This document shows, in pieces, positions 4,924 through 41,369 of a stretch of DNA of 64,000 nt; positions within the stretch are counted from its first letter, which is position 1; the number at the start of each line of letters is the position of its first letter. Under the pieces are notes generated by a model, which saw only the letters and a program-made list of their open reading frames with translations, had not been told where the DNA came from and did no database searches. Origin of the DNA: Halapricum salinum (lineage in GTDB: Archaea > Halobacteriota > Halobacteria > Halobacteriales > Haloarculaceae); contig NZ_CP031310.1 in NCBI RefSeq assembly GCF_004799665.1, positions 2,906,887-2,970,886 on the forward strand, read 5' to 3'. The position numbers and the translations under genes are program-made.

Positions 4924-5457
4924 ATGACCGACGACTACGTCGACGAACTCGAAGCCAATCGCGCCGAAAAAGACCGATTTCTCGCCGAGCATCGACAATC
5001 GCCCATCCCACCCGAAGAGCGCGAGGACTTCGACGGGCTGGACTACTTCGAGCCGAACCTCGACTACCGGGTCGAAGCGAGCGTGACCGTCCACGACGCT
5101 CCCGAGACGGTCGAGATGGATACCTCCGCCGGACGGTCAGTGGAGTACCAGCACGTGATCACGTTTGAATTCGACCTCGACGGCGAGAGCCACCATCTTC
5201 ACGGCTACCAACAGGCCGGCGACGACGCGATCTTCGTCCCGTTCCGGGACAAGACGACCGGCCAGCAGACCTACGAGGGCGGCCGCTACATGGAACTGGA
5301 GCCTGATCGCACGCTCGAAGACGGTGACACTGTGACGATCGATTTCAACCTCGCGTACAGCCCATTCTGTGCGTTCAGCGAGACGTTCGACTGCCCGCTC
5401 CCGCCGGAGGACAACTGGCTCGAAGTGGGAATAAAGGCGGGCGAGCAGTCGCGATAG
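4924..5457 (+). CDS. DUF1684-family protein
   Basis: A 177-aa soluble protein matching the DUF1684 pattern. It has an N-terminal helix with RAEKDRFLAEH and SPIPPEER, then a beta-rich body with LHGYQQAG, FVPFRDKTTGQQTYEGGRYMELE and DFNLAYSPFCAFSETFDCPLPP. The closing part, with its NLAYSP..A and CPLPP..N motifs, is the family hallmark. The biochemical role of DUF1684 is unknown. It follows the saccharopine dehydrogenase-like gene by 25 nt and probably shares its transcript. The start ATG directly precedes the conserved N-terminal helix. Confidence 0.85.
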   Translation: MTDDYVDELEANRAEKDRFLAEHRQSPIPPEEREDFDGLDYFEPNLDYRVEASVTVHDAPETVEMDTSAGRSVEYQHVITFEFDLDGESHHLHGYQQAGDDAIFVPFRDKTTGQQTYEGGRYMELEPDRTLEDGDTVTIDFNLAYSPFCAFSETFDCPLPPEDNWLEVGIKAGEQSR

Positions 5458-5544: not shown

Positions 5545-7047
5545 GTGTCCCCCCGTTCGACCCGCTTCGTCCGTCACCTTCGACGGGTAGTGCTCGCGCT
5601 CGCTCGGTTCCTGAGCAATCCGATCAGCGGCGTCATCGTCGCTGTCGGGAGCTTGCTGGGTCGATTCGGCCTGGCCGACCGCGAGCGGACCGAGCGCACG
5701 GCCGAACTGGCCTGGCCCCGCATCGTCACCGGCATCGCCCGGATGTCGAAAAACGCCGTCGACGTCGCGATGGTCGGGATCGCCATCGGGCCGCTCGCGA
5801 TCGCTGGCGTCGGCTTCGCCGGCCCGTTCTGGGGGCTGGCCTTCTCGTTCGGCGGCGGCGTCGCCGCCGGCTCGATCGCGCTCGTCTCCCAGCGCTTCGG
5901 GGCCGATCGACTGGACGCCATCGGCGGCGCGGTCCGTTCTTCGGTCTTGCTCGCGGTCGTCCTGACGCTCCCGCTCACGGCCCTGTACTGGCTGTTCCCG
6001 GTCGAGTTGCTCTCGTTGCTCACGGACAATCCGCGGACGATCGAACTCGGGAGCGCCTACCTGCAGATCGTGGGGCTCGGCGTCCCGTTCGCGGCACTGA
6101 ACCTCGTCGGGAGTCGCGTCTACATCGGCGTCGACGACGCCTGGACGCCGATGGTCATCCGTTCGGCCGGTGCGATCACGAACGTCGCGCTCAACGCCGT
6201 GTTCATCTTCGTCCTCGACATGGGCGTCGTCGGCGCGGCGCTCGGGACGGTCCTCTCGAACGTGCTCGTGACCGCCACCTTCGCGTTCGGACTCGTCGTC
6301 CGGCAGATCCCGGGAACCAGACAGTTCCCCACGTGTATCTCGCCGCTGGGGACCTACGCCGATCGAGGGACGATCCGTGACATCGTCGAGATCGGCCTCC
6401 CCGTCGCCGGTCGCAACAGCGTCTGGACGGTCGCACAGTTCCCGATGCTGGCGATCGTCGCCCTCTACGGCGAGTTCGTCGTCGCTGCCTACGTCATCGC
6501 GCGTCGGATCTGGGGGCTGATGAACACGCCCGGCTGGGGTTTTGGACTCGCCGCGTCGAGTCTCGTCGGTCAGCAACTCGGAGCCGAAGACGAGGATCGG
6601 GCGGCCGCCTACGGCAAGGAGATCACCCGGCTGGCCATCGGGACCTATCTCGTCGGCGGGATTCTGACAGCGCTACTCGCCGAGCCGATCGTCCGGCTGT
6701 TCGTCGACGACCCCGCGAACACGTCGATCCCCATCGCGGTCGCGCTGGTCTACGCGGCCTGTCTCGCCATCGTCCCGCAGGCGATCAAGGCGACCATCGC
6801 CGGGGCGCTCGATGCGACAGGCGACACGCGCTGGCCGTTCTACAGCCAGGCGCTCGGGATGGTCGGGGTCGCGATCCCCCTGGTGTATCTCGGGGCCGTG
6901 ACGCCCCTCGGGATGTGGGGCCTGTACCTCTCCTTTGTCGCTGAGAGCACGATCCCCGCGGCGATCAACTACTACCGGTTCGCGACCGGGAAGTGGCGCG
7001 CGATCAGTCGGGAGTACCGGCCGGACGCCCAGGTCGGAGACGACTGA
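5545..7047 (+). CDS. MATE-family multidrug/cation antiporter
   Basis: An integral membrane exporter of 500 aa with about 12 hydrophobic segments arranged in two similar halves, as in NorM/DinF-type MATE proteins. Typical segments are GIGPLAIAGVGFAGPFWGLAF in the first half, LGVPFAALNLVGSRVYIGVDD at the end of that half and GFGLAASSLVGQQLGAED in the second. The family exports organic cations in exchange for H+ or Na+; in a haloarchaeon Na+ coupling is plausible but not shown. The start is GTG. Tandem structured repeats begin 3 nt after the stop codon. Confidence 0.9.
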   Translation: MSPRSTRFVRHLRRVVLALARFLSNPISGVIVAVGSLLGRFGLADRERTERTAELAWPRIVTGIARMSKNAVDVAMVGIAIGPLAIAGVGFAGPFWGLAFSFGGGVAAGSIALVSQRFGADRLDAIGGAVRSSVLLAVVLTLPLTALYWLFPVELLSLLTDNPRTIELGSAYLQIVGLGVPFAALNLVGSRVYIGVDDAWTPMVIRSAGAITNVALNAVFIFVLDMGVVGAALGTVLSNVLVTATFAFGLVVRQIPGTRQFPTCISPLGTYADRGTIRDIVEIGLPVAGRNSVWTVAQFPMLAIVALYGEFVVAAYVIARRIWGLMNTPGWGFGLAASSLVGQQLGAEDEDRAAAYGKEITRLAIGTYLVGGILTALLAEPIVRLFVDDPANTSIPIAVALVYAACLAIVPQAIKATIAGALDATGDTRWPFYSQALGMVGVAIPLVYLGAVTPLGMWGLYLSFVAESTIPAAINYYRFATGKWRAISREYRPDAQVGDD

Positions 7048-7272
7048 CGTGTCGACGGCCGGCACGGCCACGCGTTCATGCGTGGCCAGTCCAGCCGGGA
7101 GAACTGACGTGTCGACGGCCGGCACGGCCACGCGTTCATGCGTGGCCAGTCCAGCCGGGAGAGGATTGACGTGTCGACGGCGGCTCGCGAGCACGTTCAT
7201 GTGCGAGTAGTCCAGCCGGGAGACCTGAGTTGTCGACGGCGGCTCGCGAGCGCCCTCGTGCACGAGTAGTTC
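7048..7272 (+). repeat. Tandem ~60-bp structured repeat array I (4 units)
   Basis: Four head-to-tail units begin immediately after the MATE stop codon. The anchor GTCGAC occurs at 7051, 7111, 7173 and 7232 (periods 60, 62, 59). Each unit has GTCGACGGC-GGC, then a hairpin around a GTTCAT loop, then the box AGTCCAGCCGGGAGA. Units 1 and 2 have a perfect 8-bp stem (GGCCACGC / GCGTGGCC at 7066-7073 and 7080-7087). Unit 3 has a different stem (CTC..GCAC / GTGCGAG). The last unit is truncated and lacks the CCAGCCGG box. An outer helix CCGGC / GCCGG can enclose the hairpin. The array fills the gap between two convergent genes. Related arrays are at 24303-24422 and 39885-40035. Confidence 0.85.
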
Positions 7273-7290
7273 CCCCCAATCGACGCGTCG

Positions 7291-8169
7291 TCAGTAACAC
7301 AACTGTTCGACGCGTTCGTCGTAGAGTCGCGCGAGCAGGGTCGTCATCGGCCCGCGCCCGATCTCGATCCCATCGAGAGACGCGACGGGGCGGATCCCCC
7401 ACGTCGAGTTGGTGAGAAAGGCCTCGTCGGCGTTGCGGACGTCCTCGACGGTGTAGCGACCCTCGCGGACCTGGAAGTCCTCCTCCTGGGCGAGTTGGAT
7501 CACGATCGATCGGGTGACGCCGGGCAGGATCGACTGCTCGCGCGAGGGGGTCTTCAATACCCCGTTGTCGACGAAGAAGACGTTCGACGTCGCGCCCTCG
7601 GCGACGTGCCCCTCGGTATCTCGCATGAGCGCCTCGTCCGCTTGAAAGTCGTCGGTCGCCGCCCGTCGGAGTTCCAGCCGAGCGAGGATTCCGTTGAGGT
7701 AGTTGTGCGTCTTCGCGTCGGCCGGGATCGCCTCGTCCGGGACACGGCGAGTCTTCACGGACTGGAGGGTCGCGTAGTCGTCCCAGACCGACTCGCCCTC
7801 GACGCCGCCTCGGGGCAGCGAGTCGACCTGCACGACGACTGTGGGATCGACCGCTTCACCCGGCGTGAGTTTCCCGGGCTGGACCCCGCGGGAGATCGAG
7901 AGCTTGACGTAGGCGTCGTCGAGGTCGTTGCCGTCGAGTGTCGTGACGACCCGATCGTGAAGGTCCTCGCGCGAGGGGAGGGCGTCCACGAAGCCGAGGG
8001 TCTTCACAGTCCGTTCGAGACGGTCGGCGTGGGCGTCCCAGGCGAAGACCGTCCCGCCGTAGGCCCGCATCGTCTCGAAGGCCGCGTCGCCGTACATGAA
8101 TCCGCGGTCGCGGACGCTGACGGTCGCCTCCGAGGCCGGCACGAGGTCGCCGTCGACGTGATACTGCAT
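7291..8169 (-). CDS. pabC: Class IV aminotransferase fold PLP enzyme (aminodeoxychorismate lyase / BCAT-like)
   Basis: The 292-aa protein belongs to the fold-type IV PLP family. Lys153 in DAKTHNYLNG is the PLP-binding lysine, RGFMYGDAAFETMRAYGG near residues 22-39 is the substrate/PLP region, and EGHVAEGATSNVFFV carries the conserved glutamate. Members are 4-amino-4-deoxychorismate lyases (PabC, folate synthesis), branched-chain aminotransferases or D-amino acid transaminases. The short length and GDAAFET pattern favour a PabC-like role, but specificity is uncertain. The start was set at the first Met of MQYHVDG. It faces the MATE gene, with the repeat array between their 3' ends. Confidence 0.8.
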   Translation of the reverse strand: MQYHVDGDLVPASEATVSVRDRGFMYGDAAFETMRAYGGTVFAWDAHADRLERTVKTLGFVDALPSREDLHDRVVTTLDGNDLDDAYVKLSISRGVQPGKLTPGEAVDPTVVVQVDSLPRGGVEGESVWDDYATLQSVKTRRVPDEAIPADAKTHNYLNGILARLELRRAATDDFQADEALMRDTEGHVAEGATSNVFFVDNGVLKTPSREQSILPGVTRSIVIQLAQEEDFQVREGRYTVEDVRNADEAFLTNSTWGIRPVASLDGIEIGRGPMTTLLARLYDERVEQLCY

Positions 8170-11959: not shown

Positions 11960-13771
11960 TTAGACCTGCTCGAAGTACCACCGCTGATTCGAATTGCCGT
12001 ACCACTCCCACTGATGGACGTCCCCGCCGTCGGCGTTCGACCAGCCCGCGACGTCCAGACACTTCCCGCTGTGGCGTGAGGACACCCGATAACCGTCCCC
12101 GACAGACTGGATGTCCCAGCGCTGATTGTCGCCGCCGTGCCAGCGCCACTGATGGACGTTCGTGCCGTTGTCGGTCGACGGACCGGACACGTCGAGCGCC
12201 TTCCCGCTGTGAGCTGGCGTCAGTCGATACGAGCCGTCGTCCAGCGCTTCGGCCGTCCAGCGTTGATTCGAACCGCCGTGGTAGGACCACTGGTGGACGT
12301 CCGCCCCGTCGGCGCTCGACCAGCCCGCGACGTCCAGGTACTTGCCGCTGTAGGCGTTGCGGATCTCGTAGGTCGCACCGTCCTGAATGCCCGTTTCGGA
12401 CTCACCAGTCGGTGCGTAGTACGTCCAGCCGCCGGCCGGGACCGTGACGTACGCCCAGCCCTCCGAATCGGTCGCGATCGGCTCGCCAGTCCCGGAGTAG
12501 TCCTGAAGTATCTGGTCGCTCCAGGAGGTCTGGACCCACTGGCTAATCGTGGTCGAACCGTTGTTCAGGCCGACCAGTAGGTGGCTCTCGCGCTCGAAGA
12601 TCGCGAGGTTCGCGTCGGTGTGTCGCCATATCGTCGAACCGCCCGCGAGGTTCTTTTTCACCCAGATCATGTTCCGGAAGTCGGCGTCGCCCAGGATCTC
12701 GTCGGGGTAGAGATTGTACAGCATGGGATATCCCGCCGCGCCCAGGACGAACGCGTGGGCGAGTTTGTACTGGTCGGGATGTTGCGTATCGTGGTTCTCC
12801 ACGATCGGCATCGCCCGTGCGGAATCCTGGGCGATCAGTCCGGCCCCTTCCAACACGCGCATGTCGCCGTGATTGAACGCGTCCTCGATGGCGAAGTACA
12901 GCGGGTAGTCGAAGACGTGCATCCCGGTGTCGGCGTACTGCTGGGCGAGTTCGACCGAGGTGGTGAACACTTCCCCGACGCGGAACATCCCGCCGAAGTC
13001 GTTCTCGGCCCACGGGTTGGCGTGCTGGCGGAAGAACCACTCCGGCATGTTCTTGGCGGCGTCGAAGCGGTAGCCGTCTGCACCCGTGTTCGCGATCTTC
13101 TGCATGTAGTTGTACAGCTTCGTGCGGACGTACTCCGAGGACTGCTTGAGATCCGGCAGATTCTCGATCGATCCCTTCTCGACCAGCTCGGGATCGCATT
13201 CGATGCGGTCGGGATCTCTGGGTTCGCCGTTCTCGAAACAGCGATCGTCTTCGGGATCGAAGCCGTACGCCCAGGTCGGAATCCCACCCTGATGGTGGAA
13301 GTCGTTCCAGCTGAACTGCGGGAAGTTGTCGAAGTTCATCCCCGCCGCCATGTGGTTCATGACGGTGTCGACGTACACTTCGACACCCTCACGGTGGGCG
13401 GTGTCGATGAGAGTCTGTAGCTCCGCTTCGGTTCCCATCACGCTCTCGAAGTCCAGCAGGTCGACCGGCTGGTAGCCGAACGGTGGCTCCCCACGGCCGT
13501 CCCGAACCTCGTGGCCGGGCGTGAGCCGCGATTTCTGTGGCGGCTGGATCCAGATGGCGTCGATCCCGACCTCGGAAACACGACTCAGATCGTCGGTGAT
13601 CGTCGGCCAGTCCTCGTGGAAGTACTGTAACGCGACCGGCTCACCTGCGCCGTGGTCCGCCGCCGTCGTCCCCGCGCTGGAGACGCCAGCGACGCCTGCT
13701 GCGGCCGCGCCCGTGAGCCCTTTGAGTATCTGTCTGCGCGATACGTCCGTAGCGATGTCTCTCGATACCAT
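11960..13771 (-). CDS. Secreted alpha-amylase (GH13) with C-terminal ricin-type lectin domain
   Basis: Hydrolyses internal alpha-1,4 bonds of starch outside the cell. The 603-aa preprotein has a Tat signal (SRRQILKG at 11-18). The GH13 barrel carries region I DTVMNH (135-140), region II YRFDAAKN with nucleophile Asp237, region III GEVF with acid/base Glu267 and region IV ENHD with Asp328. Residues 463-603 form a three-lobed ricin B-type domain whose QRW triads are near 503, 550 and 595, which should bind glycans and hold the enzyme to its substrate. It is the most diverged of the four amylases here (region II ends in KN, not KH). It has its own A+T-rich promoter. Confidence 0.92.
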   Translation of the reverse strand: MVSRDIATDVSRRQILKGLTGAAAAGVAGVSSAGTTAADHGAGEPVALQYFHEDWPTITDDLSRVSEVGIDAIWIQPPQKSRLTPGHEVRDGRGEPPFGYQPVDLLDFESVMGTEAELQTLIDTAHREGVEVYVDTVMNHMAAGMNFDNFPQFSWNDFHHQGGIPTWAYGFDPEDDRCFENGEPRDPDRIECDPELVEKGSIENLPDLKQSSEYVRTKLYNYMQKIANTGADGYRFDAAKNMPEWFFRQHANPWAENDFGGMFRVGEVFTTSVELAQQYADTGMHVFDYPLYFAIEDAFNHGDMRVLEGAGLIAQDSARAMPIVENHDTQHPDQYKLAHAFVLGAAGYPMLYNLYPDEILGDADFRNMIWVKKNLAGGSTIWRHTDANLAIFERESHLLVGLNNGSTTISQWVQTSWSDQILQDYSGTGEPIATDSEGWAYVTVPAGGWTYYAPTGESETGIQDGATYEIRNAYSGKYLDVAGWSSADGADVHQWSYHGGSNQRWTAEALDDGSYRLTPAHSGKALDVSGPSTDNGTNVHQWRWHGGDNQRWDIQSVGDGYRVSSRHSGKCLDVAGWSNADGGDVHQWEWYGNSNQRWYFEQV

Positions 13772-24302: not shown

Positions 24303-24422
24303 CAGCGTCGCTCGACTGAACCCTTCGCACATAAACGTGCTCACGAGCCGGCCGTCGACAAGTCAGGTCTCCCGGCTGGGCTGGCTGCGCATGAACGCGC
24401 AGTCGTGCCGGCCGTCGACAAT
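24303..24422 (-). repeat. Tandem ~60-bp structured repeat array II (2 units)
   Basis: On the minus strand two units begin 3 nt after the stop codon of mqo. The GTCGAC anchors at 24414-24419 and 24354-24359 are 60 nt apart. The first unit has the hairpin CTGCGC-GTTCAT-GCGCAG followed by AGCCCAGCCGGGAGA. The second has CTCGTGAGCAC-GTTTAT-GTGCGAA and a decayed tail (GTTCAGTCGAGCGA). Sequence and layout are those of the array at 7048, in the same orientation relative to the preceding gene. The array ends 44 nt upstream of the DsbA-type gene and so lies between two genes of the same direction. Confidence 0.8.
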
Positions 24423-25793
24423 TTAGTCGTCCGCAGCGATCTTCTTCGGCTCTTCTTCGCGCGGGAAGTTACCGATCGTCGCCTCGCGGAACGATTCCTC
24501 GTCGAAGCCGTAGTCGGCATCGAGGAAGTCGACCAGCGTCCGAGTGTCGCGCATCGCGTTCTTCAGACAGGTCGAGGCCCCCGGCGACGGCGTGATGTTG
24601 AAGATGATCCCGTGGCCGTGGATCTTGGCCTCACCCATGTCCAGGGTCTTGTTGGCGGTGTCGACGATCTGCGGGCGGACGCCACCGTAACCCTTCGCGC
24701 GCTTGATGTCGTCTTCCTCGACGGACGGAACGACCTTCTGAACGTGGGGCAGGAACGCTTTCTTGCCGACTTTCGGCACGTCGTAGAAGAGGTTCTTCAC
24801 GACGTACGGGAAGAGCACGCGGTCGGCGAGGATGTTCGCGTAGCTCAGGAACGACGACGCGTTCAGCCCGAAGACGTCGAAGAAGTCCGGTACCGTGTTC
24901 AGACGGCCGCGTTCGAGCGCCGGGACGAGCTTCGCGGTCGGACCGAACCGCGTGGTGCCCTGATCGTGGACGTCGGCGTCGCCGTGGACCGCCGCGAAGG
25001 GCAGTTTCTTCATCTGGAGGGTGTAGACCTTGCCGTTGAGCAGTCCCTCTTCGGCGAGGAAGAAACTCCCCGCGACCGGCAGCAGCGACTTGTTCTTGCC
25101 GTAGCCCATCTCCTTTGCGACCTGGAGGCTGTGAGAGCCTGCCGCGACGACCGTCGCGTCGGACTCGAAGGTCCGCTCTGCGGTCTCGACGGTGAACCCG
25201 TCCATCGTCTCGGCGATGTCGGTCACTTTCGTGCCGGTGAAGACGTCGACGCCCTCGCTGTCGGCGACCGTCTCGACGAAGTCTTTGGAGATCTCGCCGT
25301 AGTCGACGGTGTAGCCGTCGGGCGTCTGCAGCGCGAGCAGGTCCTTTCGCGGGTCGCGGCCCTCGACGACCTTCGGTTCGAGTTCGGCGATCCGATCACG
25401 GCCGATCGCGTCGAGTTTCGGGAACAGGTCGCCGAATCCTTCGTCGTGATAGCGCGTCTCGAGTTTGTCGACTTCCTCGTCGCCGACCGCCAGCACCATC
25501 TTCGAGCGCTTGCTGTGGATCTCACGCTCCGGATCGTTGGCTTCGAGGTAGCCAGCGACCATCTCTGCACCCTCTTTGACTTCCTCGGCCTTTTCGAGGG
25601 TGTAGTTCGTCTCGATATCCCCGAAGTGCAGCGTCTGGGAGTTGTTGGTATGGTGGGAGTTGATCGCCGCGATCTCGTCTTCTTTCTCGATGAGTGCGAC
25701 GCGTTCGATGTCGGTGAACTCGGCCACCGTATACAGGAGTGATGCTCCGCTGATACCGCCGCCGACGATAATGAGGTCGTATTCTTCTGTCAT
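24423..25793 (-). CDS. mqo: Malate:quinone oxidoreductase-type FAD enzyme
   Basis: Membrane-associated flavoenzyme that oxidises malate to oxaloacetate with quinone as acceptor, bypassing NAD-dependent malate dehydrogenase. The 456-aa product begins with the FAD-binding motif IIVGGGISGASLL (8-20). It shows the Mqo family blocks NNSQTLHFGDIETNYT, KGYGGVRPQIVD and ITPSPGASTCLKNAMRD. No signal or membrane helix is present, consistent with a peripheral protein. It is transcribed singly with an A+T-rich promoter (a TTTATAAT-like element near 25890). Structured repeats follow its stop codon. Confidence 0.85.
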   Translation of the reverse strand: MTEEYDLIIVGGGISGASLLYTVAEFTDIERVALIEKEDEIAAINSHHTNNSQTLHFGDIETNYTLEKAEEVKEGAEMVAGYLEANDPEREIHSKRSKMVLAVGDEEVDKLETRYHDEGFGDLFPKLDAIGRDRIAELEPKVVEGRDPRKDLLALQTPDGYTVDYGEISKDFVETVADSEGVDVFTGTKVTDIAETMDGFTVETAERTFESDATVVAAGSHSLQVAKEMGYGKNKSLLPVAGSFFLAEEGLLNGKVYTLQMKKLPFAAVHGDADVHDQGTTRFGPTAKLVPALERGRLNTVPDFFDVFGLNASSFLSYANILADRVLFPYVVKNLFYDVPKVGKKAFLPHVQKVVPSVEEDDIKRAKGYGGVRPQIVDTANKTLDMGEAKIHGHGIIFNITPSPGASTCLKNAMRDTRTLVDFLDADYGFDEESFREATIGNFPREEEPKKIAADD

Positions 25794-39293: not shown

Positions 39294-39884
39294 ATGTCCA
39301 AACAGATCCTGATGATCGTCGGCGATTTCGGGGAAGACTACGAGATCATGGTGCCGTTCCAGGCGCTGCAGGCAGTCGGCCACGAGGTCCACGCGGTTTG
39401 TCCGGAGAAAGAGGAGGGCGAGACAGTCAAGACAGCCATCCACGACTTCCGCGGGGATCAGACGTATCTGGAAGAGCGCGGTCACGACTTCCAGGTGACG
39501 GCGACGATGGCAGACGTGGAACCGAGCGACTACGACGCGCTCGTGGTTCCGGGCGGACGTGCCCCCGAGTATCTCCGGGGCTACGAGGAAGTACTCGACG
39601 CGGTTCGACACTTCTTCGAGGCTGACAAGCCTGTGGCGGCTATCTGTCACGGCCCGCAGATCCTCGCTGCGGCGGGCGTGCTGGATGGCTACGAGATGAC
39701 AGCCTATCCCGCGGTCCAGCCCGAGGTCGAGGCCGCCGGATGTTCGTGGGTCGACGAGGTGACGACCGACGGGAATCTCGTGACGGCCCAGGCCTGGCCG
39801 GACCACCCCGAGTGGATCGCCCAGTTCCTCGACGTGCTGGGGACCGAGATCGAGCACGGTGCAGTTGCTGCCGCAGATGACTAG
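39294..39884 (+). CDS. DJ-1/PfpI-family protein
   Basis: The 196-aa protein shows the nucleophile elbow AAICHGPQ with Cys118-His119 and a conserved acidic residue near the N-terminus (Glu15 region, DFGEDYE). This matches PfpI-type proteases/deglycases. Family members repair glycated amino groups or act as glyoxalase III or peptidase; which applies is unclear. An in-frame GTG nine bases upstream exists, but 39294 gives the normal start of the first beta strand. Structured tandem repeats begin 4 nt after the stop codon. Confidence 0.88.
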   Translation: MSKQILMIVGDFGEDYEIMVPFQALQAVGHEVHAVCPEKEEGETVKTAIHDFRGDQTYLEERGHDFQVTATMADVEPSDYDALVVPGGRAPEYLRGYEEVLDAVRHFFEADKPVAAICHGPQILAAAGVLDGYEMTAYPAVQPEVEAAGCSWVDEVTTDGNLVTAQAWPDHPEWIAQFLDVLGTEIEHGAVAAADD

Positions 39885-40035
39885 CTTTGTCGACGGCGGC
39901 ACGGCTGCGCGTTGATGCGCAGCCAGTCCAGCCGGGAGAAGTGCGTTGTCGACGGCCGACACGGCCGCGCTTTCATGGGCGAACAGTCCAGCCGGGAGAC
40001 ATGCCCTGTCGACGGCCGGCTCGTAAACACGACCA
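39885..40035 (+). repeat. Tandem ~60-bp structured repeat array III (3 units)
   Basis: Units begin 4 nt after the PfpI stop codon. GTCGAC anchors stand at 39889, 39948 and 40008 (periods 59 and 60). Unit 1 has a perfect 8-bp hairpin, GGCTGCGC / GCGCAGCC around GTTGAT (39903-39924). Unit 2 has a damaged stem (GGCCGCGC against GGGCGAAC). Unit 3 is cut short after a small hairpin (TCGT-AAAC-ACGA). The box AGTCCAGCCGGGAGA follows units 1 and 2. The family is the same as at 7048 and 24303. The array fills the space between two convergent genes. Confidence 0.82.
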
Positions 40036-40043
40036 CCAACTGT

Positions 40044-41369
40044 TCAGGCGACGATCCGGTAGACGGCACCTGAATCGCCGCTCGGCCCGGACCGGTTCGT
40101 GGTACAGATGACGAGTTCCCCGTTGTGCATTCGCCCGAGTGCAAGTGCGTTCTGGGGCACGTCGCCGCCGTCGCGCTGGAGGTCCACGACCGAGGTGTTC
40201 CAGAGACCATCCTCTCGTTCCTCGGCGGCGTAGAGCTGCCCGTTGAGTATCCAGTCTGCGAAGACGAACGTCCCGTCGAGATCGGGGAACAACGCGCCAC
40301 GATAGCGATAACCGCCGATGACGGCCGCGCCGTTGGGTGGGTCGCCGCCGTGGTCGTACTCGACGATCGGATCACGCAGACGGGTTCCATCGGGCGTCTC
40401 GCGCGGACAGTTCTGCGCGTCGTAGCAGTGGGTCGCCTCGCGGACGTTCCAGCCGTAGTTGCCGCCCGCCTCGACGAGATTGACTTCCTCGTACTGATTC
40501 TGGCCGACGTCAGCGGCGTACAGGTCTTCGCCGTCGAAAGACATTCGCCAGGGGTTGCGCAGACCCCACGCGTAGTGTTCGTCCAGGCCTGCCTGCCCGA
40601 CGAGCGGATTGCCCGGCGGAATCGCGTAGGGTAGTTCATCGTCGCGATCGTCGACGTTGATCCGGAGGATACTCCCCAGGAGGTTCGACTCGACGTCCTG
40701 GCCGTTGCCGCCCTGGTTCGCGTCGTACCAGTCGCTGACGTGGCCCCTACCCCTGTCGCCAGCGCCGCCGCCGTCGCCGACGGCGACGTAACAGTAGCCG
40801 TCGGGGCCGAACGCGACTGCACCGGCGTTGTGATTCGATTGGGGCTGCGGGATTTCGAGGAGCGTGCGCTCGGAGTCGAGCGGGACGGTCGTCCCGGCAG
40901 GATCCATCGTGAACTCAGAGAGGACGAAAGTGTGGCTGTAGTTCGACGGCGTCCCAGGGCGGGAGGGCGCGCTGTAGCGGACGTAGAGTTGTCCGTTCGC
41001 CGGGAAATCGGGATGAAACGCCAGTCCGAGCAGGCCGCGCTCGTCGTACCCTTGATTGAGGTCGACCATTCGATCACGGACGTCCAGCAGCGGCGTCTCT
41101 CGAAGACCGGATTCCTCGTGCAGCCAGACCCGCCCGTCCTGGTCGACGATGGCGGCCTCGTCTGTCCGGCCAGGGATCGGCTCGAATCCAACTGGTGCGG
41201 CGAAGCCGCTGGCGAGCTGGCGGAGCTGTACGGAGTCGGGGATCGAATCCGGAGGCGGCGTGTGCGTCGCGATGTCCGTGGTCGAGGGCGGCTGTTCCTC
41301 GCTACACCCCGCGACCCCGAGCGCGAGACACCCACCGCCCAGGCGAAGGAACCGTCGGCGTGATAGCAT
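40044..41369 (-). CDS. PQQ-type soluble sugar dehydrogenase, Tat lipoprotein
   Basis: A 441-aa exported protein with a Tat signal (SRRRFLRLGG at 3-12) and lipobox VAGC (Cys22), hence lipid-anchored outside the cell. The six-bladed beta-propeller shows the glucose/sorbosone dehydrogenase blocks: LLGLAFHPDFPANGQLYVRYS, NHNAGAVAFGPDGYCYVAVGDGG, HYAWGLRNPWRMSFD and YAADVGQNQYEEVN. The NHNAG histidine and the WGLRNPWR arginines are the PQQ and catalytic positions in characterised aldose sugar dehydrogenases. Whether this haloarchaeon supplies PQQ is not visible here. It converges with the PfpI gene. Confidence 0.88.
   Translation of the reverse strand: MLSRRRFLRLGGGCLALGVAGCSEEQPPSTTDIATHTPPPDSIPDSVQLRQLASGFAAPVGFEPIPGRTDEAAIVDQDGRVWLHEESGLRETPLLDVRDRMVDLNQGYDERGLLGLAFHPDFPANGQLYVRYSAPSRPGTPSNYSHTFVLSEFTMDPAGTTVPLDSERTLLEIPQPQSNHNAGAVAFGPDGYCYVAVGDGGGAGDRGRGHVSDWYDANQGGNGQDVESNLLGSILRINVDDRDDELPYAIPPGNPLVGQAGLDEHYAWGLRNPWRMSFDGEDLYAADVGQNQYEEVNLVEAGGNYGWNVREATHCYDAQNCPRETPDGTRLRDPIVEYDHGGDPPNGAAVIGGYRYRGALFPDLDGTFVFADWILNGQLYAAEEREDGLWNTSVVDLQRDGGDVPQNALALGRMHNGELVICTTNRSGPSGDSGAVYRIVA

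Follow-up and report, generated by a model that had tools for sequence, protein, structure and literature searches.

Tandem hairpin units past Asp-Asp-stop gene ends in Halapricum: a candidate site-selective hairpin element of the REP/BIME or PATE kind

The short hairpin repeats of the REP/BIME type are well studied in bacteria, where their hairpins are imperfect, conserve a mismatch and often lie no more than 15 nt from stop codons (PMC8266576, PMC12306157), and this frequent post-stop position has been read as a sign of translational function. Translation is reported to be reduced by E. coli REPs that lie within 15 nt of a stop (PMC12306157), and the E. coli enzyme TnpA-REP recognises one strand of the repeat and needs the conserved stem mismatch (PMC8266576). 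Among haloarchaea, PATEs are IS605-derived elements that have a short 5' targeting word and occur in forms down to 52 bp, and the SMRs of Haloquadratum are transposase-free sequences of 80-110 bp with a strong target preference and an unknown mobiliser; in Haloquadratum both PATEs and SMRs moved without a visible intact transposase (PMC3119063).

The window analysed here is a stretch of 64,000 nucleotides from the Halapricum salinum genome (G000; 3.45 Mb, single contig). The original prediction described dispersed tandem repeats at window positions 7048, 24303 and 39885, each following a stop codon in the direction of the upstream gene, and all three arrays were found there: at 7050-7283 on the plus strand (three full units and one degenerate), at 24308-24420 on the minus strand (two units) and from 39888 to ~40063 on the plus strand (two units and one truncated). 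In 3/3 cases the GTCGAC start lies 3-4 nt past the stop of the MATE, Mqo or PfpI gene. The compensated arm changes, GGCCACGC/GCGTGGCC against GGCTGCGC/GCGCAGCC, are present as well; the hairpin around the reportedly conserved GTTCAT loop is kept, but the loop itself varies, with many units carrying TCTCGT, TTTTAT or others. Gene positions come from a custom, heuristic codon-usage gene caller, Pfam/NCBIfam supplied the MATE, Mqo, PfpI, ThiC, MsrB and other assignments, and unit scores are those of a covariance model, R1, built from 52 units. The features of the window are as follows.

5590-7047, plus strand: MATE gene (MatE PF01554)
7039-7047, plus strand: GACGACTGA, the two final Asp codons of the MATE gene with its stop, putative target word (from sequence and Asp-Asp-stop enrichment)
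7050-7102, plus strand: array 1 unit 1, type A hairpin, stem ~7056-7097, 2 nt past the stop (R1, 77.4 bits)
7110-7162, plus strand: array 1 unit 2, type A, core identical to that of unit 1 (R1, 77.4 bits)
7172-7223, plus strand: array 1 unit 3, type B hairpin with the GA/GA stem mismatch (R1, 73.8 bits)
7231-7283, plus strand: array 1 unit 4, degenerate 3'-most copy, diverging after AGTTC (R1, 30.2 bits)
24423-25793, minus strand: Mqo gene (Pfam)
24423-24431, minus strand: GACGACTAA, end of the Mqo gene, putative target word (sequence, Pfam)
24368-24420, minus strand: array 2 unit 1, type A (R1, 74.9 bits)
24308-24360, minus strand: array 2 unit 2, type B, 3' end degenerate (R1, 53.5 bits)
39294-39884, plus strand: PfpI gene (Pfam)
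39876-39884, plus strand: GATGACTAG, end of the PfpI gene, target-like word (sequence, Pfam)
39888-39939, plus strand: array 3 unit 1, type A (R1, 72.6 bits)
39947-39999, plus strand: array 3 unit 2, A/B hybrid hairpin (R1, 66 bits)
40007-40063, plus strand: array 3 unit 3, truncated 3'-most copy (R1, 16.4 bits, weak)

The linker ACTGACG of array 1 unit 2 is a copy of the bases preceding unit 1. Stops of convergent genes lie at 7291, past array 1 unit 4, and at ~40044, at array 3 unit 3. The 138-bp repeats at 11978-12357 are ordinary in-frame C-terminal repeats of an alpha-amylase-like gene, lectin-like by eye.

A search of the full genome and of related genomes, as the original prediction had proposed, resolved these arrays into one dispersed family confined to the genus. 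The R1 census returned ~60 units in ~21 arrays of 1-5 units in H. salinum (E down to 3e-17). The unit core measures 52-53 nt, is composed of TGTCGACGGCCGGC, the hairpin and AGTCCAGCCGGGAGA, and is followed by a linker of 5-10 nt; its left end is TGTCGACGG or TGACGACGG. No exact copies of the left end occur outside known arrays in this genome, and an autonomous parent element sharing that end was rejected because ends with one mismatch elsewhere looked on inspection like coding sequence. Weak matches to the model at 1186k, 1423k, 1909k, 2650k and 737k were judged by sequence inspection to be chance. At ~5001-5033 of locus L036 (G000:C1:1148124-1148156, minus), a gene ends in codons that match the unit right end, GAGTCCAGCCGGGAGA followed by ATAG, possibly as the remnant of a unit inside the C-terminus, or possibly by chance.

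Among the congeners, which include H. hydrolyticum and Halapricum sp. CBA1109 (G003), three arrays were found in G001, one each in G002, G003 and G005, and none in G004. No strong match appeared in 140 other genomes of the family, of which eight gave weak single matches of 26-32 bits, nor did 392 genomes of the order yield a match in other genera at E <= 1e-4, showing that the repeats are restricted to Halapricum. An array upstream of hemL, 32-33 nt from its start, is common to five species and is therefore the oldest site, and the other H. salinum arrays are absent from the array loci of the congeners and thus reflect expansion in this species. Beside the hemL array, at L090:5073-5429, the 3' end of a tRNA-Ser(GGA) gene recurs as partial copies in tandem with a period of 126-127 bp, which look as though left by repeated integrations. 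At locus L086, immediately 5' of an array (G001:C1 ~691.9 kb), AGGGGCTGAAGCCGTAGGCTTCCGCGC stands between two copies of TGTGAACAGT at the array edge, and presumably resembles the end of an IS1341-type element.

The fold of the units is supported by covariation. Across 45 distinct units, 95.6% of the cells of the named structure are paired against 87.9% in shuffles, and 49 cells have changes in both partners, where shuffles give 12.7; these counts are non-independent as units share ancestry. The covariation score was reached by 0 of 500 shuffles and collapsed when the partner was slid by 1-3 columns. A separate alignment, of 19 units from other species with the H. salinum hemL unit (20 in all), gave the same result, again with 0 of 500 shuffles, and compensated changes recur in four other Halapricum species. 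This covariance analysis, also proposed in the original prediction, bears out its claim of a folded single strand under constraint; the copies neither lie at random relative to genes nor lack compensated changes. On the sense strand G.U wobbles outnumber A.C by 58 to 4, and the tandem G.A mismatch would become C.T if the other strand folded, from which it follows that one strand is the folded one. That strand may be RNA or single-stranded DNA, between which the asymmetry does not discriminate.

Such wobble and G.A asymmetry is not expected of duplex sites, and it bears on the idea that the units are protein-binding DNA sites for chromosome organisation or recombination, their hairpins extruded as cruciforms. 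Most units do contain the GTCGAC palindrome, and 18/21 H. salinum arrays lie within one arc covering 40% of the chromosome (P = 0.0008, post hoc); yet the family is absent from G004 and nearly so from G002 and G003, and we hold this explanation to be very improbable.

The hairpins fall into two types distinguished at columns 19-20/35-36, where type B has a G-A/G-A tandem mismatch and type A is fully paired, as C-U/A-G or C-C/G-G, both sides switching together. Exactly one type A unit, beside type B, is present in 16 of 18 multi-unit arrays (expected 7.6, P = 5e-5), with typing by eye and two hybrids scored both ways to the same result. This one-type-A composition is new here, and common descent of a composite array could be its source. 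A shorter type C unit, TGTCGACGGTCGGC-loop-GCCGACCGTC, has the left end of the family and is located within the same arrays (L089:4920-4953 and ~5070-5100; L200, G000:C1:551409-551436); it occurs in two Halapricum genomes, and two genomes from other genera each have a single exact match.

The layout had originally been thought to match no described family. The whole window indeed gave no Rfam match at gathering thresholds, but the REP/BIME and PATE/SMR families are close analogues (PMC8266576, PMC12306157, PMC3119063). Like REP/BIME sequences, which are moved by TnpA-REP/RAYT, the Halapricum units are short, dispersed, intergenic, imperfectly palindromic hairpins of two types mixed in arrays, with a conserved stem mismatch (AA-GC in E. 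coli REP, GA/GA here), single-strand asymmetry and many copies near stops. Unlike them, they have no GTAG/GTRG 5' of the palindrome, keep to one orientation and strand per array instead of alternating, number ~60 against the usual >100 and are associated with the target word GACGACT. A further difference is that the H. salinum genome has no Y1/RAYT gene: the Y1 transposase domain PF01797, found in four congeners, is absent from G000 and G003, and mobilisation by a Y1/RAYT enzyme of the host's own was rejected for that reason. Unit-like ends at 12 Y1 loci of congeners, TnpB-only elements left out, did not exceed chance (R1, blastn). With PATEs the units share small size, a palindrome and the lack of coding capacity; they differ in having no similarity to the ends of Halapricum Y1-type elements, in their tandem arrays and in their single central hairpin. 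SMRs, likewise free of a transposase and selective in their targets, are bounded by terminal inverted repeats and insert into other mobile elements, whereas the Halapricum units have weakly complementary ends and occupy gene ends and intergenic sites. Integron attC core sites R'/R'' (GTTRRRY, RYYYAAC) were absent by inspection of the 52-unit alignment, and no genes lie between units as they would in integron-type cassettes.

A position fixed relative to stops, always in the direction of the gene, had been claimed from the three window arrays. Genome-wide it describes 13 of 21 arrays, which start 2-3 nt past a same-strand stop, against 0.6% for a random intergenic position (P ~4e-24). Two further arrays lie in sense 9 and 14 nt past a stop, and the remaining six have on their 5' side the start of a gene that reads away, and so lie upstream of it (L034, between rpoL and the 3' end of an opposite-strand gene; L041; L043; L044; the minus array of L045; and L090). 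The exact 2-3 nt spacing, the sense orientation in 7 of 8 tandem gene pairs, the many convergent neighbours and the sense-strand fold with its G.U and G.A pairs would all suit a functional mRNA 3'-end element, protecting from 3' exonucleases, slowing the terminating ribosome or separating convergent genes, with selection keeping structure and position, and the down-regulation of translation by stop-proximal E. coli REPs (reported in PMC12306157) points the same way. The six arrays upstream of gene starts nevertheless have equally good hairpins: in the four divergent loci counted, 161/162 cells (99.4%) are paired, against 494/502 (98.4%) in the other arrays, so that a 3'-UTR role is not the general reason for the kept fold; hairpin integrity would, however, be evened out too if cores had recently been exchanged among loci. 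No function common to the host genes emerged from Pfam/NCBIfam, which also disposed of a host-gene regulon, and congener orthologues occur without arrays. Together with a target word whose Asp-Asp-stop enrichment is not expected from RNA function, these observations oppose selection as a 3'-UTR element, originally proposed, as the main cause, and we consider an mRNA 3'-end function unlikely as the explanation of the family.

That word shows in the protein ends of the host genes. Seven of 14 end in Asp-Asp-stop (GACGAC-TGA/TAG/TAA), against 1/185 other H. salinum genes and 35/791 in other haloarchaea (about 1-4%), an enrichment with P = 9e-7 against the larger background; as TGA, TAG and TAA are all used, it is not a matter of TGA alone. 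The non-coding array at L041 is preceded by GACGACTG in the same register without a gene end, and at many loci GACGACT(G/A) is found ~4 nt 5' of the unit, the 3-4 nt preceding the unit being repeated in linkers. A clear GACGACT word is missing at several arrays, those upstream of hemL and rpoL among them. Array-free orthologues of PfpI (G003), ThiC (G004) and MATE (G003) already end in Asp-Asp-stop, and an element-supplied stop codon is thereby ruled out, relatives without arrays having the same protein end. The single partly syntenic empty site, ThiC in G004, is too diverged for an insertion junction to be read. Because GACGACT(G/A) coincides with Asp-Asp-stop gene ends, units would come to lie 2-3 nt past stops, and the post-stop position seems largely accounted for by the target word. 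In Halapricum sp. CBA1109 the MATE orthologue has a different tandem repeat of 34 bp, in 4.2 copies starting at the stop (L188:91-233, G003:C172), each unit of which contains GACGACTGA together with a hairpin of 7 bp, one pair being a wobble; this repeat and the unit family may share a mechanism.

The 3-nt sequence ahead of the first unit reappears as the last bases of 17 of 43 linkers, where 2.6 were expected from shuffles, whose maximum was 8; of the 60 cores, 40 have their closest relative outside their own array. With linkers local and cores shared among loci, the cores have arrived by insertion or exchange. Where the stop is TAG or TAA, the flank is not repeated in the linkers, and 3' flanks show no clean target duplications. 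The weakest unit is the 3'-most in 15 of 17 arrays, and several arrays end at AGT(T)C, as if the founding insert had been a core of ~41 nt. The unit right end with its linker (GGGAGACCTGACC, GGGAGACGTGAGT) resembles the target, GACGACTGACG. The local sequence copied in linkers could also be had without dedicated mobility, by minisatellite-like duplication at gene ends and gene conversion in a polyploid, highly recombining archaeon, with template switching maintaining palindromy, and unrelated tandem repeats over stops do exist elsewhere (the 34-bp MATE repeat of G003 and several in other haloarchaea). Gene conversion, however, cannot account for the initial copy at each of 21 unlinked sites, template switching would have repaired the conserved GA/GA mismatch and not preserved it, and the target-word enrichment also stands against this account, which we judge quite improbable.

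We therefore lean, with some reserve, towards the arrays being copies of a short, non-autonomous, site-selective hairpin element resembling REP/BIME sequences or PATEs. A core of ~41-57 nt (TGTCGACGG... hairpin ...AGT(CCAGCCGGGAGACGTG)) would be placed one-way, ~4 nt 3' of GACGACT(G/A), the word presumably setting the orientation. Where the word falls on the stop of an Asp-Asp-stop gene, the unit would lie 2-3 nt past the stop, in sense, doing little harm, and selection would remove insertions at the same word inside genes. Insertion and not gene conversion would bring the first copy to each locus, and the target-like right end and linker (GGGAGACCTGACC) would let further units join on the 5', stop-proximal side, building tandem arrays whose 3' copies are the older, decayed ones. 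Spread would depend on recognition of the folded single DNA strand by some protein or process, with the GACGACTGANN junction as a candidate cleavage region; the mobiliser might be an enzyme since lost, an enzyme of another kind, or recombination. The hairpin might later have been put to use at mRNA 3' ends: an effect on the message is plausible because the stem starts ~8 nt past the stop and E. coli REPs near stops reduce translation. More tentatively still, and with considerable doubt, a mobile single-strand hairpin element that lands at GACGAC-stop in an archaeon without a Y1 transposase, its arrays carrying exactly one type A and at least one type B unit, might constitute a new site-selective class, perhaps serving also as an mRNA 3'-end cap.

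Read as an inserted element, the Halapricum family would be an archaeal REP-like family in a host without the expected transposase, and would define the substrate of its mobiliser. The position after stops, explicable here by a word that encodes Asp-Asp-stop, makes the choice between 'selected for mRNA function' and 'inserted there' directly testable.
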